64,000 bases of DNA, from NCBI RefSeq assembly GCF_000703045.1, contig NZ_JNLJ01000001.1, positions 1,021,501 through 1,085,500 of the forward strand. The letters are read 5' to 3'. Of this stretch, positions 29,150 through 36,297 are shown piece after piece. The stretch is from Persephonella sp. IF05-L8 (GTDB lineage Bacteria > Aquificota > Aquificia > Aquificales > Hydrogenothermaceae). Both the position numbers and the translations under genes were made by a program. Each line of letters opens with the position of its first letter. Position 1 is the stretch's first letter. The notes under the pieces are model-generated. The model worked only from the letters and a program-made list of their open reading frames with translations. It searched no databases and had not been told where the DNA came from.

Positions 29150-29881
29150 TTATTTTTCAGCAGTTTCAATTCTAAAATCCTTAGGAGGTTTTACTTCCCA
29201 GCTTCCAAGCCACATTATGTAGGTAAGAAGAGCAAAACCTCTTACATTAGGAATAATATTTCCATTCTTATCTTTTTCAAAGAACCATGGATATCCAGGC
29301 ATATTTGTTCCTGGGGAGGTACTTTGTGGGTCATAAAGGTGAGCTACCTGCCATCCTACATTGTGAACAGCAGCTTCTCTAATCAGGTCTGGTCCCACCC
29401 TTTTAGTTCCCCAGAGAACTGGAGCCTGAAGCTCGTTGTTGTATTCAGATGGATAAGATACTGTGTTAGATACACCTGGAATACCAAATCTAAGAGTTTC
29501 GTTAGATACAGGTCTTACCATCTGAGAGTGACAGTTCCAGCAACCTTCAGCCACATACCATCTGTGTCCTATTCTGAGAGCTTTGGCAAGGGTTTTACCG
29601 TTTGGTTTACAGTCTTTAATTACTTCAGTTGCACCACTGAAAGCTTCTGTATATTCACACAGTTTCTTGAATGTCTCAGGATAATATCTTGCAAGTTTAT
29701 TGAAATCTGACCATGCTGTTGTGTTATTTGCTATTGCTTCAGCTGCCAGGTCTTCAACTGACTTTTTAGGAATATCTTTGAGAACAAACATAGGCAGAGC
29801 CCAAGATATAAAGTCAGCAAACAGGAAGAATATAATTCCTGCTACTAACGCTACAAATGAAAAACGTTCCATCTTACCCAT
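29150..29881 (-). CDS. ccoO: cbb3-type cytochrome c oxidase subunit II (monoheme)
   Basis: The 243-residue subunit has an N-terminal membrane anchor and a single heme c site, EGCWNCHSQMVRP, near 113-124, in the typical CcoO context. RVGPDLIREAAVHNVGWQV and MPGYPWFFEK follow, the latter containing the likely Met ligand. It passes electrons from CcoP to CcoN. It is 14 bases after ccoN. Confidence 0.92.
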   Translation of the reverse strand: MGKMERFSFVALVAGIIFFLFADFISWALPMFVLKDIPKKSVEDLAAEAIANNTTAWSDFNKLARYYPETFKKLCEYTEAFSGATEVIKDCKPNGKTLAKALRIGHRWYVAEGCWNCHSQMVRPVSNETLRFGIPGVSNTVSYPSEYNNELQAPVLWGTKRVGPDLIREAAVHNVGWQVAHLYDPQSTSPGTNMPGYPWFFEKDKNGNIIPNVRGFALLTYIMWLGSWEVKPPKDFRIETAEK

Positions 29882-29895
29882 TATACTTTACCTCC

Positions 29896-31290
29896 TTATA
29901 CTTCTCTGAGCTCTGCTGTGAGACCAGCTTTAGCTGTAGCAGTTTTATAGAAGTTCAGAGCATACATGAACAGTCCTGTGAGCATCATTATTCCAGCGAT
30001 AGACCTGAAGTACCAGAATGGCTTAGAGAAGTTTACAGAGTCAATCCATGGGTTAAGTCCAATCCAGTCAAATCCTTGAACAAGACCACCAGCTGTAAGG
30101 TCAAAGAACATTGCCAGAACTCCAATCATAAGGAGCCAGTAAGCACCTTCAGAGAGACCTTTGGAATACATTGTTTCTTTTCCAAATAATCTTGGCCATA
30201 CATACTCAGCCATTCCAAGAACCCATAGACCGAATGTTCCGAACATGATTAGGTGAGCGTGTCCTGTTACCCAGTCTGTAAAGTGGATTACTTTCTGGAA
30301 TGTGAGTGTTACGTGGAATGCACACTGGAAGCAAGTAATCCAGTAGAAGATAGCTCCTGTATACATATATCTTAATGGAACATTGTATTTGAGCTGTTCT
30401 GCAGAACCTCTAAGTGTCATCATGAAGTTAATCAGAACAGATGTAACAGCGAACTCAACTGCAACTGTTGCAAATACTGCAGAATATTGTGCAAACATTG
30501 GTATTGGTGACCACAGGAAGTGGTGAACACCGTTCATTGGATAGAAGAATGCAAGCCCCCAGAAACCAAGAAGTGATAATCCGTGAGACCACATTGGTTT
30601 TTTCATAATAACAGGAACGAAGTAATACATTAATCCCCATGCAACTGGTGTAACATAAAGTCCAACAAGGTCGTGGATAAATGTTGATTGAACAGCACCT
30701 GCTCCAGAACCTACAGCCCAGAACCTTGGAATTAAGTTACCCATGAACACAACAAGTGGTGTCCATACTAACATTGCTGCCATATACCATCCAGAAACGT
30801 AAAGTGGACCTCTTTGTGAGGCTTTATAAAGTGGAGCACCAAACTGCATTAATGCAAGTAAGAGCCAGAATACAATTATTGGGTCTAACCACCAAGGAGT
30901 TTCTCCCCACTCAACGTTGTCAGCCATTCCAAGGAAAAGTATAGCTACAACAGTTATAAGAACAGCTGCTTGAAGTGCAATAAACATAAACCATCCAAGA
31001 GCATCACTTAAAACTCTATAACCTGTAAATCTTGGAATTGCCCAGTAAATTAATCCTGTAAACATATTAACAAGAAATCCGTAAGCAGCACCAGCTGTGT
31101 GTATCATTCTAATTCTTCCAGGAGAGAGAAACTCTATTCCTGGAAATGGATAAATTCCATCAAGCTGGAGAGAGTATAAAAATCCCATTATTCCTACGAT
31201 AATAAAGAAAACCAATCCCATTGCCACATGAGCTTTTACAAGCCCATAGTTGACAAGGTTTTGAAGTTCTTGTGTATTATTAGCTGCCAT
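29896..31290 (-). CDS. ccoN: cbb3-type cytochrome c oxidase catalytic subunit I
   Basis: The 464-residue, 12-helix heme-copper oxidase subunit reduces O2 and pumps protons. His ligands are visible: RMIHTAGAAYGF (low-spin heme), IHDLVGLYVTP (CuB), NGVHHFLWSP (CuB pair) and TGHAHLIMFG (both hemes). GLMYYFVPV contains the Tyr position that cross-links to the CuB His in cbb3 enzymes. This oxidase type has high O2 affinity, so the organism respires at low oxygen. Confidence 0.95.
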   Translation of the reverse strand: MAANNTQELQNLVNYGLVKAHVAMGLVFFIIVGIMGFLYSLQLDGIYPFPGIEFLSPGRIRMIHTAGAAYGFLVNMFTGLIYWAIPRFTGYRVLSDALGWFMFIALQAAVLITVVAILFLGMADNVEWGETPWWLDPIIVFWLLLALMQFGAPLYKASQRGPLYVSGWYMAAMLVWTPLVVFMGNLIPRFWAVGSGAGAVQSTFIHDLVGLYVTPVAWGLMYYFVPVIMKKPMWSHGLSLLGFWGLAFFYPMNGVHHFLWSPIPMFAQYSAVFATVAVEFAVTSVLINFMMTLRGSAEQLKYNVPLRYMYTGAIFYWITCFQCAFHVTLTFQKVIHFTDWVTGHAHLIMFGTFGLWVLGMAEYVWPRLFGKETMYSKGLSEGAYWLLMIGVLAMFFDLTAGGLVQGFDWIGLNPWIDSVNFSKPFWYFRSIAGIMMLTGLFMYALNFYKTATAKAGLTAELREV

Positions 31291-31302
31291 TTCTTACCCT
31301 CC

Positions 31303-32079
31303 TTATTTACCTTTGTTCATTAGATAAGCAATGTAAGAAACAAGTGCCCATCTATCTCTTTCTGAAAGATGTCCGAATGCTGGCATTGGAGAACCTTCAA
31401 GACCCACTGTAAGAACTCTAAATGTATCTTCTGGTTTTGGACCAGCTGCTCTAACTGGATATGTAAGGTCTGTTGGAGGGACTGGCAATGTTGTTGCTAC
31501 AGGACCATCTCCTGCTCCTTGCTCACCGTGACATGCTGTGCAGTTTTGAGCGTAAAGCTCTTTTCCTCTCTGGATTAACTCAGGAGAACCAAAGTCAGCA
31601 GGTCTTTTGATTTCTTTGTAAACTGATTGACATTTTTCTGGGTCAGGTTGCCCTTTTTCCCATTTGTCTCTTGCAAAAGTTTTGATGTAGGCAATAACAG
31701 CTCTTTTTTGAACTTCAGGAACAAGTTTGAATGATGGCATTGGAGTTTGTGGAAGACCCCAGTTCAGAACATGGAGTAAATCTTCATCTGTAGGTAAACA
31801 TCCTTCAGGTGTAGACTTCCATCTGAAAACTGCAGTGTGGAAGTTAGGGGGTTTGTCTTTGAAGAATTTCGCCGCCTGGGTATTACCATCTCCGTTAACG
31901 CCATGACATCCAACACAGAACTTGTTATAGACTTTTCTTCCTGCTTCTTCCTGCGCAGTTAAATCTTTGGTTTTTTTAGCCTGTGCCGGTTTTGATGAAT
32001 AAACATGCAACAGGCCGTAAATGAACAGTGCCGGGAAGAAGAAGAACAAAATCCATTTAACGGCCGTGTTTTCTCCCAT
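31303..32079 (-). CDS. Diheme cytochrome c, CcoP-like, with N-terminal anchor
   Basis: The 258-residue protein has an N-terminal hydrophobic anchor (about 8-27), then two cytochrome c domains: CVGCHG (about 55-60) and CTACHG (about 180-185), with Met ligands in TPMPSFKLVPE and SPMPAFGHLSE. This is the periplasmic part of cbb3 subunit CcoP, but the typical N-terminal FixP_N anchor is missing and found as a separate small gene at the operon end. It is the first gene of the operon, 12 bases before ccoN, instead of last as in N-O-Q-P operons. Confidence 0.85.
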   Translation of the reverse strand: MGENTAVKWILFFFFPALFIYGLLHVYSSKPAQAKKTKDLTAQEEAGRKVYNKFCVGCHGVNGDGNTQAAKFFKDKPPNFHTAVFRWKSTPEGCLPTDEDLLHVLNWGLPQTPMPSFKLVPEVQKRAVIAYIKTFARDKWEKGQPDPEKCQSVYKEIKRPADFGSPELIQRGKELYAQNCTACHGEQGAGDGPVATTLPVPPTDLTYPVRAAGPKPEDTFRVLTVGLEGSPMPAFGHLSERDRWALVSYIAYLMNKGK

Positions 32080-32164: not shown

Positions 32165-32818
32165 TTAAAATATTGATTTTTCTATTATTTCGGAGAATTT
32201 ATTGAAGCTAAAAACTTTTTTATCTTTTATCCTATTCTCTTTTAGCATTGATTTTAGCTGCCCTGTTGAAAAAATTATATCACTATATTGACATGCGTCA
32301 AGGTCTGTAATTCCATCTCCTGCATATAATTTCAAACTATAGTTTCCGTAGTAATTCTTCATTATATATGGTTTACAAATACCACAGTTTCGTTGGCATT
32401 TCTCCCCACATCTGTATATAAATCTAACATCCATTTTTTCTTTTTTGAAGGAGATTTTATTACAGTATATCTGGCTTATTCTGCTTAAATGGTTTTCAAG
32501 TAATGGATAGATATATAAATCTACTCCTCCACTTAGAACGACAAAAGGGATATTTTTTCGGTTCAAAAACTCTAAAAACTCCGAAAATCCTTCTCTGAGC
32601 TTTATATTTTCCTTAACCCAGTGAACTATTTCTTCCTTTTTATCAGAAGGTATAAGCTGGAACATCTGACGAATTCCAATATCTATATCTATTTTCCCAG
32701 ATAATAGATTTTCTTGGATTTTTTTGTATTCAGGAGGGGCAAATTCAGCCATTATAGCATCAATAACATCCTGTTCTGTTATTGTTCCATCAAAATCGGA
32801 GAAAAATATAGCTGACAT
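32165..32818 (-). CDS. mtnX: MtnX-type HAD phosphatase
   Basis: The 217-residue HAD phosphatase has the nucleophile motif FSDFDGTITEQD (Asp 8 and 10), VVLSGGVDLYIYPLLE (motif II with cap), and YAGDGITDLDAC (motif IV). EFAPPEYKKIQENLL and the Cys cluster YRCGEKCQRNCGICKP match Bacillus MtnX, 2-hydroxy-3-keto-5-methylthiopentenyl-1-phosphate phosphatase of methionine salvage. The upstream gene is a RuBisCO-like protein, the usual MtnW partner. Phosphatase assignment is good; the exact substrate depends on the partner. Confidence 0.85.
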   Translation of the reverse strand: MSAIFFSDFDGTITEQDVIDAIMAEFAPPEYKKIQENLLSGKIDIDIGIRQMFQLIPSDKKEEIVHWVKENIKLREGFSEFLEFLNRKNIPFVVLSGGVDLYIYPLLENHLSRISQIYCNKISFKKEKMDVRFIYRCGEKCQRNCGICKPYIMKNYYGNYSLKLYAGDGITDLDACQYSDIIFSTGQLKSMLKENRIKDKKVFSFNKFSEIIEKSIF

Positions 32819-32819
32819 T

Positions 32820-33974
32820 TTATTTGAACTCTTTCAATTCTTTACTCAGTGATTTACATTCTTCCAAGGAGATACTATTTACTACACAGTTTAAAGTATC
32901 AAAATAGGCTTTTGCTCCTGCTGTAATTCCTGCTTTGTGCTTTTGATAGTTATTTCCAATATCAATTGCAACAAGATTTCCAAAATCCTCAAAGATTTTA
33001 TACAGGTCGTGTGGATAGATGTCTCCATATAATACAGGATAAACAGGTCGTATATTTTCAAAATCTTCTCTGAGACTTTCTGCTATCTCGACAGATTTAA
33101 AATGGGGAATATTTTTGTATCTGTAAGGAGAAGGTATTAAGACCATATCTCCCCCAGAAAGTCTGGTTAATTTTCCAAAGAGTAAGTCTGGTTGAATACC
33201 AAAATCATCATTTTCAAAAAAGAATGATGGATAAGATAGATTAAGTATAAATCCAACTTCAAATTTTTCTGATAAATACCTTACTGTTTCAAACCCCAGT
33301 GGGAAAAGATTTAAAACAAATATTCGTATATGCTTTTGAACGGCAAAGTTTATTTTATTTTCTATTTCTTCTAAATTTCCAGATAGAAATGGGGCATATA
33401 CTATTTTCCTTGAGTGTTTTTCCTGTAGTTTGGCTTTTAGCTGTGAAATATAATCAATTCTGCTCTCAAATAGTGCAAATCCTTCATTAAAAAATAGCTC
33501 ATCTTCTCTGACAATATCTATTCCACCATCAATAAGGCTTTCAAATATCTCTCCTATTTCTTCCTTTTTTAATCCTACAGCTGGGCGAATTGTTGATATT
33601 AACAGAGGTCTGTGATGAATTTCTAAGTAGTCCTGTATACCCTTTATTCCATAATTTGCACCTTTAAAATGGTCAAGAAATGCAGGTGGAAAATCTATAT
33701 CAATCAGTTTTATACGGTAAGGTAAAATCATCTCACCATAAGTAAGGGATAAAATTGAGTATAAATCATGTCTAAACAGGGACACAGGAAACTGAACTTT
33801 GAACAAAACTTTATAAACTTTCAGGTCGGTATCATAAAAATCCTCAACCTCTCCAAGCTTTACAGGGAGAGGTGTCCTGGAAAGAGAAAGAAAATCAATA
33901 ATTTTATCTACTTCCTGCTGAGGCTGAATTTTTTCTTTAGAAGTGAGCAGATAAGTAGCCTCTATATAGTTCAT
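32820..33974 (-). CDS. RuBisCO-like protein (type IV), divergent MtnW-like
   Basis: The 384-residue protein aligns by eye with MtnW, the 2,3-diketo-5-methylthiopentyl-1-phosphate enolase. HRPLLISTIRPAVGL, GGIDIVREDELFF, LLFGKLTRLSGGDMVLIPSP and AGITAGAKAYFDTL match the family blocks. The position of the carbamylated active-site Lys (DxxKDDE) is Arg here (about residue 156, in VREDE), and the TIKP Lys is also Arg (about 130). The His of the AHPA block is not seen. Fold assignment is firm. Enolase activity is doubtful or must use altered chemistry. It lies one base upstream of mtnX. Confidence 0.8.
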   Translation of the reverse strand: MNYIEATYLLTSKEKIQPQQEVDKIIDFLSLSRTPLPVKLGEVEDFYDTDLKVYKVLFKVQFPVSLFRHDLYSILSLTYGEMILPYRIKLIDIDFPPAFLDHFKGANYGIKGIQDYLEIHHRPLLISTIRPAVGLKKEEIGEIFESLIDGGIDIVREDELFFNEGFALFESRIDYISQLKAKLQEKHSRKIVYAPFLSGNLEEIENKINFAVQKHIRIFVLNLFPLGFETVRYLSEKFEVGFILNLSYPSFFFENDDFGIQPDLLFGKLTRLSGGDMVLIPSPYRYKNIPHFKSVEIAESLREDFENIRPVYPVLYGDIYPHDLYKIFEDFGNLVAIDIGNNYQKHKAGITAGAKAYFDTLNCVVNSISLEECKSLSKELKEFK

Positions 33975-33983
33975 TTTTCACCC

Positions 33984-34304
33984 TTATACTTCTTTTATTA
34001 TATTGTAAACCTCAATAACCGGATGTCCTGCAAACCACTCCCTTGGTGGAGGATTTTCATGGGCTTTTCTGAATGCCTCACTTTCTGTATATTTCTTTAA
34101 CGCTTCCATATTTTCCCAGTAAGTTGCAATAATAAATGTGTTATTCTGGTTATTAGGTGGAAAGTTAACAGGCTCAAGAAGGTTCATCTTTATAAATCCT
34201 TCCTGCTCAGTCAATCCTTTTTCTCCAAATCTTTCAAGGGCATATTCCTTAAACTGTTCCCTGTATTCTGGATTAATCGGGAATTTTGTGAATACTACTA
34301 CCAT
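33984..34304 (-). CDS. Antibiotic biosynthesis monooxygenase-fold protein
   Basis: The 106-residue protein has the ABM/dimeric alpha-beta barrel pattern: VVFTKFPINPEYREQFKEYA, an internal GFIKMNLLEPVN strand, then FIIATYWENMEALKKYTESE and EAFRKAHENP. Family members include heme-degrading IsdG/HmoA-like enzymes and cofactor-free oxygenases. No heme-binding residue is certain here. It is nine bases upstream of the RuBisCO-like gene on the same strand and downstream of the peptidase, so it may share a message with both. Function not assigned. Confidence 0.7.
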   Translation of the reverse strand: MVVVFTKFPINPEYREQFKEYALERFGEKGLTEQEGFIKMNLLEPVNFPPNNQNNTFIIATYWENMEALKKYTESEAFRKAHENPPPREWFAGHPVIEVYNIIKEV

Positions 34305-34314
34305 TTCTACCTCC

Positions 34315-36297
34315 TTAGCTATATTTTATTCCGCTTAGTTTCAGCAGTGCATCTGTGTCCGGTTCTCTACCTGCAAAGTTTTTAAACAGTTCCATTGCAG
34401 GTCTGCTACCACCTTTAGTTAAAATTTCTTCATAAAAACTTTCTGCCACATCATCATTGTATATTCCGTTATCCACAAACATAAAGTAAGCATCAGCAGA
34501 TAAAACTTCTGCCCATTTGTAACTGTAATAACCGGCTGCGTATCCGCCGGCAAATATATGGCTAAAGCTCCACTGGAATTTGTTGTATTCTGGTGGTTTT
34601 ATGACTGATACCTCTTCCCTGACTTTGTTAAGTATTTCCTGAACATCTTTTGCAGTATATCTGTCCATATGTATGAGCATATCAAATATTGCAAACTCCA
34701 GCTGACGAACCATTGCCATTGCAGATAAAAAGTTCCTGGCATTTTTTAGCCTGTTTATCATATTTTCTGGGATAGGTTCTCCTGTTTTATAATGAAATGC
34801 AAATGTTTTTAATACAGATGGTTCGTAGGCAAATTGTTCAAGGAACTGGGATGGAAATTCCACAGCATCCCATTCAACACCTGATATTCCGCTTACAAAT
34901 GGTTCTCTTACTTTGCTTACAAGATGGTGAAGTGCATGCCCCATTTCATGAAAAAGTGTTTCCACATCGTAGGGTCTAAGAAGGGATGGTGTATCTTCTG
35001 TGGCAGGTGAAAAGTTGGCAACAATAAATGCAACTGGTTTTATTATATTTCCTTCTTCATCTTCATGGTGTGCCACCCACTCATCCATCCATGCTCCATC
35101 TCTTTTCCCTTCTCTTGCCTCAAGGTCAAGGTAAAGTCTGCCTATTAGTTCGCTGTTTTTGTAAATATGATAAACATTAACAGATGGATGCCATACAGGA
35201 ACGTTCACTTCCTCAAATTCCAGTTTGAATAGTTTGTTAAGAAAATCAAAAAGACCTTTGATTACCCGATTTTTCTCAAAATAGGGTTTGTATTCCTCAT
35301 CATTTACATTGTATTTTTCTTTTTTGAGCTTTTCTGCATAGTATGAAAAATCATAAGCCTGCAGGTTGTCTTTTAGGCCTAACTTTTTAGCGTAGTTGTT
35401 TAGTTCTTCATACTCTTTTTCAGCCTGAGGCTTGCTTTTTCTGGCAAGGTCGTAAAGAAAATCCAAAACCTGAGATGGAGATTGTGCCATTTTTGTGGCA
35501 AGGGAAAGCTCTGCATAATTATTAAAACCAAGAAGTTTTGCCTTTTCGTATCTTAGAGCAAGAATTTCTTCAAGAATTTTATCATTTTCAGGGGCTCTTG
35601 TGACATAAGCCCTGTATAGCTCTTCCCTTTTTTCCCTGTTTGAACCATAGGTCATATATGCTATATAAGATGGCTGGTGCAGGGTAAATCTGTAAACTAT
35701 TTTTCCATCCCTTTCCTGCTGTGCTGCTTTAAGCTCTGTTTCTGGCAGTTCTTTCACATCTTCGTAGTCTTCAATAATCATCTCATAGCTGTCGGTGGCA
35801 TTGAGAAGGTTTTGGGCAAACTGGTTTTGCAGCTGGGAGAGTTTGATGTTTATCTGTTTGACTTTTTCCCTTTTTTCACCTTCCAAATTTACACCGGATA
35901 GCTCAAAATCTCTTATAGCATCTTCAAGAACTTTTCTCTGCTCTTGATTAAGAGTGTTCTTTTCTTTCTCATATATTTCTTTGAAGGCTTTGTAAAGCTC
36001 CTCATTCTGTCCCAGTTCTGTGTAATATTCAGTTATAACAGGCAGTAGCGCTGTATAAACTTCTTGAGTTTTTGGAGAGTTTTTAACATAGTTTAAATGG
36101 GAAATAGGGGAGAATAAAATCCCCAGTTTTACATGCATAAGCTGATATGGTTTTACAAAGTTCTGGTATGTTTTGTTTTCTATTTTTAAAAGCTGCTGCA
36201 GTTTTTCTTTATTCTGTTTTATCTGGTTTAAAACTAATTCTTTCTGCTGGTCTAAATTTTCATCATTTATTGTAAATTCAGGGAATACTATCGACAT
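34315..36297 (-). CDS. M3-family oligopeptidase (PrlC/OpdA-like)
   Basis: The 660-residue zinc metallopeptidase has VETLFHEMGHALHHLVSKV, the HExxH motif with the conserved Gly, and the downstream Glu region GVEWDAVEFPSQFLEQ. Length and layout fit cytoplasmic oligopeptidase A/PrlC, which degrades peptides and cleaved signal peptides. No signal sequence is seen. It starts ten bases after the small unknown gene upstream. Confidence 0.92.
   Translation of the reverse strand: MSIVFPEFTINDENLDQQKELVLNQIKQNKEKLQQLLKIENKTYQNFVKPYQLMHVKLGILFSPISHLNYVKNSPKTQEVYTALLPVITEYYTELGQNEELYKAFKEIYEKEKNTLNQEQRKVLEDAIRDFELSGVNLEGEKREKVKQINIKLSQLQNQFAQNLLNATDSYEMIIEDYEDVKELPETELKAAQQERDGKIVYRFTLHQPSYIAYMTYGSNREKREELYRAYVTRAPENDKILEEILALRYEKAKLLGFNNYAELSLATKMAQSPSQVLDFLYDLARKSKPQAEKEYEELNNYAKKLGLKDNLQAYDFSYYAEKLKKEKYNVNDEEYKPYFEKNRVIKGLFDFLNKLFKLEFEEVNVPVWHPSVNVYHIYKNSELIGRLYLDLEAREGKRDGAWMDEWVAHHEDEEGNIIKPVAFIVANFSPATEDTPSLLRPYDVETLFHEMGHALHHLVSKVREPFVSGISGVEWDAVEFPSQFLEQFAYEPSVLKTFAFHYKTGEPIPENMINRLKNARNFLSAMAMVRQLEFAIFDMLIHMDRYTAKDVQEILNKVREEVSVIKPPEYNKFQWSFSHIFAGGYAAGYYSYKWAEVLSADAYFMFVDNGIYNDDVAESFYEEILTKGGSRPAMELFKNFAGREPDTDALLKLSGIKYS

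Follow-up and report, generated by a model that had tools for sequence, protein, structure and literature searches.

Persephonella encodes a RuBisCO-like protein (RLP) that is best explained as a former MtnW, the enolase of methionine salvage, whose pocket has been repurposed without a metal and which now has another role beside the phosphatase MtnX. We put the probability of this reading at about 0.5. The gene (384 aa; 32820..33974, minus strand) lies in the window, a 64,000-nucleotide stretch of the Persephonella sp. IF05-L8 genome, and was recognized by its open reading frame, profile matches, alignment and fold. Its active-site residues make it very probable that the protein does not act as a Mg- and carbamate-dependent DK-MTP-1-P enolase. 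Among the titles and abstracts listed in a literature search, none was relevant to the RLPs of Persephonella or Hydrogenothermaceae. To our knowledge, an RLP clade with Arg fixed in place of the carbamylated Lys has not been described, although RLPs without some of the RuBisCO residues are familiar (PMC5575542).

The RLP gene sits in a tight run of four genes on the minus strand, pepF-ABM-RLP-mtnX. An oligopeptidase of family M3 (34315..36297) heads the run and is followed by an ABM-domain protein of an IsdG-like family (106 aa; 33984..34304), which ends 9 bases upstream of the RLP gene. The mtnX gene (217 aa; 32165..32818) starts one base past the RLP stop codon and encodes a HAD-IB phosphatase with intact DFDGT, SGG and GDGITD motifs, in keeping with an earlier sequence-only reading that had placed the RLP beside a good MtnX. 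Its closest solved structure is B. subtilis MtnX (2fea, E 2.9e-45), with DFDGT, SGG and GD aligned, and its scores are below the NCBIfam equivalog cut-offs (216 of 292 and 199.5 of 303 bits). Downstream lie genes of a cbb3-type cytochrome oxidase (cytochrome c subunit, CcoN and CcoO; 29150..32079), a right-hand flank that is conserved next to RLP and mtnX. An independent metagenome-assembled genome of the same Persephonella species carries an RLP that is 99.5% identical, which excludes sequencing error.

Most residues that define MtnW catalysis have been replaced. We used Geobacillus MtnW (2oek) as the reference for numbering and recomputed positions from its alignment to the window RLP. The carbamylated Lys173 aligns with R156, D174 with E157, D175 with D158 and E176 with E159, such that the V-K-D-D-E motif reads V-R-E-D-E (aa 155-159; 33498..33512, minus strand) and the metal-ligand columns Lys173, D175 and E176 hold R156, D158 and E159. 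This alignment places no alternative Lys in the K173 column, and the site cannot be an ordinary MtnW centre with carbamate and Mg. K147, the equivalent of RuBisCO K175, is R130 (codon 33585..33587, minus strand), and N245 stands in the H264 column, where the AHPA His would be. These three replacements had been called from the letters of the window, and the alignment bears them out. It also reveals losses beyond that list: K98, the proton-abstracting base of Geobacillus MtnW, is E81 (codon 33732..33734, minus strand); the phosphate-binding G360 is N341; and the Asn of the NLTG motif is gone. The segment that follows strand beta-5, N-L-S-Y-P-S-F-F-F-E-N-D-D-F-G-I-Q-P (aa 245-262; 33189..33242, minus strand), replaces the AHPA segment. 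Among the residues of carboxylating RuBisCOs (forms I-III), K175, K201, D203, E204 and H294, the window RLP keeps just D203 and E204.

The same replacements recur across the genus. All Persephonella RLPs read YGE, (I/V)RE(D/S/N)E and N at the His column, and in the nine full-length or near-full-length orthologues R156, N245 and Glu81 are each fixed (9/9). Other positions have become loose: the R130 column holds R, K or V, and two orthologues (G090, G091) have Ser or Asn at D175. The K147, D175 and G360 columns thus vary among Persephonella RLPs, whereas they are constant across all other families sampled.

By sequence, fold and tree, the nearest known proteins are those of the MtnW/YkrW clade (Geobacillus 2oek/2oem, B. 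subtilis 2zvi and Alicyclobacillus 4nas). In B. velezensis and Priestia, mtnW is followed directly by mtnX, the same order as in the window. Unlike that clade, the window RLP has K98, K147, K173, D174, H264 and G360 replaced, and its genome has MtnC. Its sole Pfam match is RuBisCO_large (PF00016; 86.2 bits against a cut-off of 30.1), and it scores far below the MtnW equivalog models TIGR03332 (168.6 of 513.6 bits) and NF007095 (215.9 of 409), for which Priestia MtnW scores 721 and 702. Photo-type RLPs (Chlorobium tepidum 1ykw and Rhodopseudomonas RLP2 2qyg) have the RuBisCO fold in common with it and belong to a different clade. Unlike the window RLP, the C. tepidum protein has Lys at both the K175 and K201 positions and keeps DDE, and the RuBisCO of Hyperthermus butylicus (6hun) likewise has Lys at both sites. 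Indeed, all nine non-MtnW relatives sampled keep both.

The enolase step of methionine salvage is covered elsewhere in the genome, by MtnC. This bifunctional enolase-phosphatase (acireductone synthase) is encoded at C1:1183268 and scores 269 bits against a cut-off of 128. MtnC and the MtnW-MtnX pair are alternative routes to one product (PMC6302742, PMC5893883), with MtnC combining the jobs of MtnW and MtnX in a HAD-family protein that has no relation to RuBisCO. The remaining steps are also encoded, including the mtnA, mtnB and mtnD genes whose presence elsewhere in the genome had been put forward as a check: MtnA at C1:775769, MtnB and MtnD side by side at C1:208585-209691, and a probable MtnP at C5:441134. 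The MtnP candidate scores 274.7 bits, just under the TIGR01694 cut-off of 274.85, and lies above the cut-off of a closely related methylthioinosine phosphorylase model; MtnD was called by Pfam ARD (121.7 bits) and has no NCBIfam match. Because MtnC covers the enolase step, the RLP is not needed as a salvage enolase, and the salvage-enzyme reading lacks support as the default. The possibility that the RLP-MtnX pair is the cell's only enolase-phosphatase was rejected since MtnC is present. A complementary distribution of RLP and MtnC was rejected as well: across the 11 RLP-carrying genomes that are at least 90% complete and no more than 5% contaminated, MtnA, MtnC and MtnD occur in all 11, and MtnB exceeds its cut-off in 10.

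The RLP is an inherited feature of one bacterial family. Orthologues occur in 19 of 136 Aquificota genomes, all of them Hydrogenothermaceae, and none of the other genomes in this set yielded a RuBisCO-family gene. Nearly all carriers share the order pepF - ABM - RLP - mtnX - cbb3 oxidase; pepF is absent from this place in G075 and G076 and inverted in G077, and several contigs end inside the run. A second RLP match in G073 was set aside as a contig-edge fragment resembling that genome's own canonical RLP. Several sister genomes lack the RLP-mtnX pair, and in two of them (G078, G099) ABM lies directly beside the oxidase genes; RLP and mtnX are both missing there, which leaves an empty site where the two-gene unit would be. 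The ABM gene was rejected as a functional partner specific to the RLP: 36 of the 41 genomes of the family have it, many of which lack an RLP, and it is therefore not tied to the RLP. The ABM-domain protein of the window distantly resembles IsdI heme oxygenases, and several Hydrogenothermaceae have it conserved next to their cbb3 oxidase genes; that it handles heme is a guess.

Orthologues with canonical residues persist in sister genera. RLPs of genera g3 and g5 (G071-G073, G077) occupy the same chromosomal place, have the same neighbours and are orthologous to the window RLP by position and tree. About 40% identical to it, they retain FGK or YGK, I-K-P/G or L-K-P, VKDDE and mostly AHPS, and they too fall under the MtnW cut-off (368.6 of 409 bits in G077 and 376 in G072). 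A maximum-likelihood tree was built from 28 rows, with a thin outgroup of 12 rows and G080 on a long branch. In it the Hydrogenothermaceae RLPs form one clade (100/99) that joins Bacillales MtnW (96/93), and the Arg-type RLPs form a single clade inside the Lys-bearing ones (100/100). This nesting indicates that the change from Lys to Arg arose once, in the Persephonella lineage and within an orthologous gene. The proposal of a separate RLP subgroup therefore stands in part: the family has its own clade next to MtnW with the Arg type inside it, but since sister genera have the canonical residues, these were lost in a single lineage and the subgroup is not an ancient one.

Other members of the family depart from the canonical set in their own ways. 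The RLPs of G075 and G076 (L127:596-1792 and L130:8215-9411) read FGR, IKENE and ANP: Lys173 is kept, whereas K98 has become Arg, K147 Glu and D175 Asn, as an intermediate or as a separate loss. The RLP of G080 (L131:8105-9286), still beside mtnX, reads VIEDT and has neither the His nor an equivalent of Lys98, which by its residues is a second, different loss of the catalytic set. That G080 and the G075/G076 pair each shed further catalytic residues in their own way suggests a general relaxation among the family's RLPs. MtnX also occurs alone: G065 and G069 encode an orthologue without an RLP at a different genome location (L132:7412-8074 and L133:835-1491), beside a large gene for a thioredoxin-domain (YyaL-like) protein, and in G065 the other flank resembles an archaeal-type S-adenosylmethionine synthetase.

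Purifying selection maintains the RLP gene. Pairwise Nei-Gojobori dN/dS is 0.05-0.09 among G000, G083 and G089 and 0.10-0.18 in more distant pairs with estimable dS, which reaches about 1. MtnX yields similar values (0.09-0.15), and the neighbouring pepF and oxidase genes lower ones (0.02-0.09). These ratios reject a pseudogene and leave it very improbable that the RLP gene is redundant, functionless and decaying, as the redundancy through MtnC, the loss of different catalytic residues in several lineages, the absence of the pair from sister genomes and the clean empty site might otherwise suggest. The reading frame, moreover, is open in all well-assembled Persephonella. In G093 (L134:1-13124), frameshifts or stops interrupt RLP, mtnX, pepF and ccoN alike, and because the neighbouring genes are broken too, these are probably assembly errors and not real decay.

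The altered pocket has its own pattern of conservation. Of 97 columns conserved in canonical relatives, the nine Persephonella proteins keep 31, have switched 9 to a new invariant residue and vary at 57. Four of the nine switched columns (K98, K173, D174 and H264) are among the eight catalytic columns (p 0.002), five of the eight catalytic columns are invariant in Persephonella compared with 84 of 384 columns overall (p 0.014), four of those five with a changed residue, and the new motif at aa 245-262, N-x-x-Y-P-x-F-F-x-E-x-D-x-F-G-I-x-P, is invariant at 11 of 18 positions (p 0.0003); these p values are indicative only, because they ignore shared ancestry and the eight columns were picked with the alignment in view. 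With new residues fixed at catalytic columns, the pocket seems to have been rebuilt and not just to have decayed.

Combining these observations, we propose that the RLP descends vertically from an MtnW-type enolase. In Hydrogenothermaceae the ancestral RLP would have stood with mtnX as a two-gene unit, flanked by an ABM gene on one side and cbb3 oxidase genes on the other; since MtnC already carried out both the enolase and the phosphatase reaction, the active site of MtnW would have been released to change. New fixed residues then took over in the Persephonella lineage (K98 to E, K173 to R, D174 to E and H264 to N), as D175, K147 and the phosphate-binding Gly turned variable. The present pocket would be metal-free, with Glu81 of the partner subunit facing Arg156, Glu157 and Glu159 and a Y-P-x-F-F-x-E-N-D loop, and the repurposed protein would bind or convert some other small molecule, in a role linked to MtnX. 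The replacements and their fixation, the ancestry of the gene, purifying selection, the conserved link to mtnX and the presence of MtnC are observed; we infer that enolase activity has been lost, that no metal is bound, that Glu81 lies close to Arg156 and that there is a new ligand or reaction. Another enolisation, which the sequence-only reading had raised, is possible. In a bolder and somewhat unlikely version, Persephonella RLPs would form a branch of the RuBisCO superfamily that works without metal, a fixed Glu/Arg pair having taken the place of the otherwise conserved carbamate/Mg centre and supporting a new MtnX-coupled reaction outside known methionine salvage.

Structure prediction is consistent with a preserved scaffold, which bears on a different possibility, that the protein is a pseudoenzyme. 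An AlphaFold2 monomer model from a three-row alignment (mean pLDDT 71, pTM 0.73) is of moderate confidence and least certain in the pocket loops, so the placement of Glu81 beside Arg156 is taken from MtnW, not seen in the model. Foldseek places RLPs and RuBisCOs as the best matches of the model (TM 0.73-0.79), with MtnW 4nas and 2oem at the top among PDB entries (0.75-0.79; 0.78-0.79 normalized by query), and the RuBisCO fold is probably intact. A predicted intact fold under strong purifying selection, nearly constant adjacency to mtnX and the loss of nearly all superfamily-invariant catalytic residues would all suit a non-catalytic protein that serves MtnX, or some other protein, as a structural or regulatory partner, and in which a salt bridge between Glu81 and Arg156, for instance, closes the old site. 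The new invariant residues could indeed be structural in this sense, and the variable phosphate-binding positions and beta-1, beta-7 and beta-8 loops fit both a complete loss of catalysis and a new substrate. We nevertheless regard a pseudoenzyme as a serious but less likely account. MtnX persists without the RLP in G065 and G069 and hence does not need it, G071 has an RLP with no MtnX found in a genome that is 83% complete, and a closed pocket does not require its replaced residues to be conserved above average, as they are. An unconventional salvage enolase appears improbable. Such an enzyme would act on DK-MTP-1-P or a 5-deoxy analogue, with Glu81 as the base and Arg156 stabilizing the enolate in place of Mg, and would pass its product to MtnX; the Bacillus-like gene order, the intact MtnX motifs and two fixed, chemically suitable residues favour it, but MtnC already does both steps, and K147 and the phosphate-binding Gly360 region are not conserved.

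The RLPs of Hydrogenothermaceae offer a ready series for studying how metal chemistry is lost or swapped in an enzyme of the RuBisCO fold. Within one bacterial family and at the same chromosomal position, some RLP orthologues have the canonical motif, some have it fully replaced and others fall in between, and the series also bears on whether enolisation in the RuBisCO fold is possible without Mg. For annotation it carries a warning: an RLP adjoining mtnX is not necessarily a salvage enolase.

Searches for more distant relatives turned up a different RLP locus on a plasmid. A one-protein scan of genome contigs matched just two loci, both in Hydrogenothermaceae, and a search for viral or phage relatives of the window RLP found none. 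Among the plasmid relatives sampled, a different, short RLP lies directly after split transketolase genes on Shinella plasmid NZ_OZ000535.1 (L184:500-5924), with relatives in Ensifer (L143) and Ponticoccus (L144). The motif of these RLPs is KDDH or KEDH, with His for the Glu ligand, and in Shinella mtnK and mtnA are present as well. These loci possibly represent another route for MTA-derived sugar phosphates that pairs an RLP with a transketolase-like enzyme.
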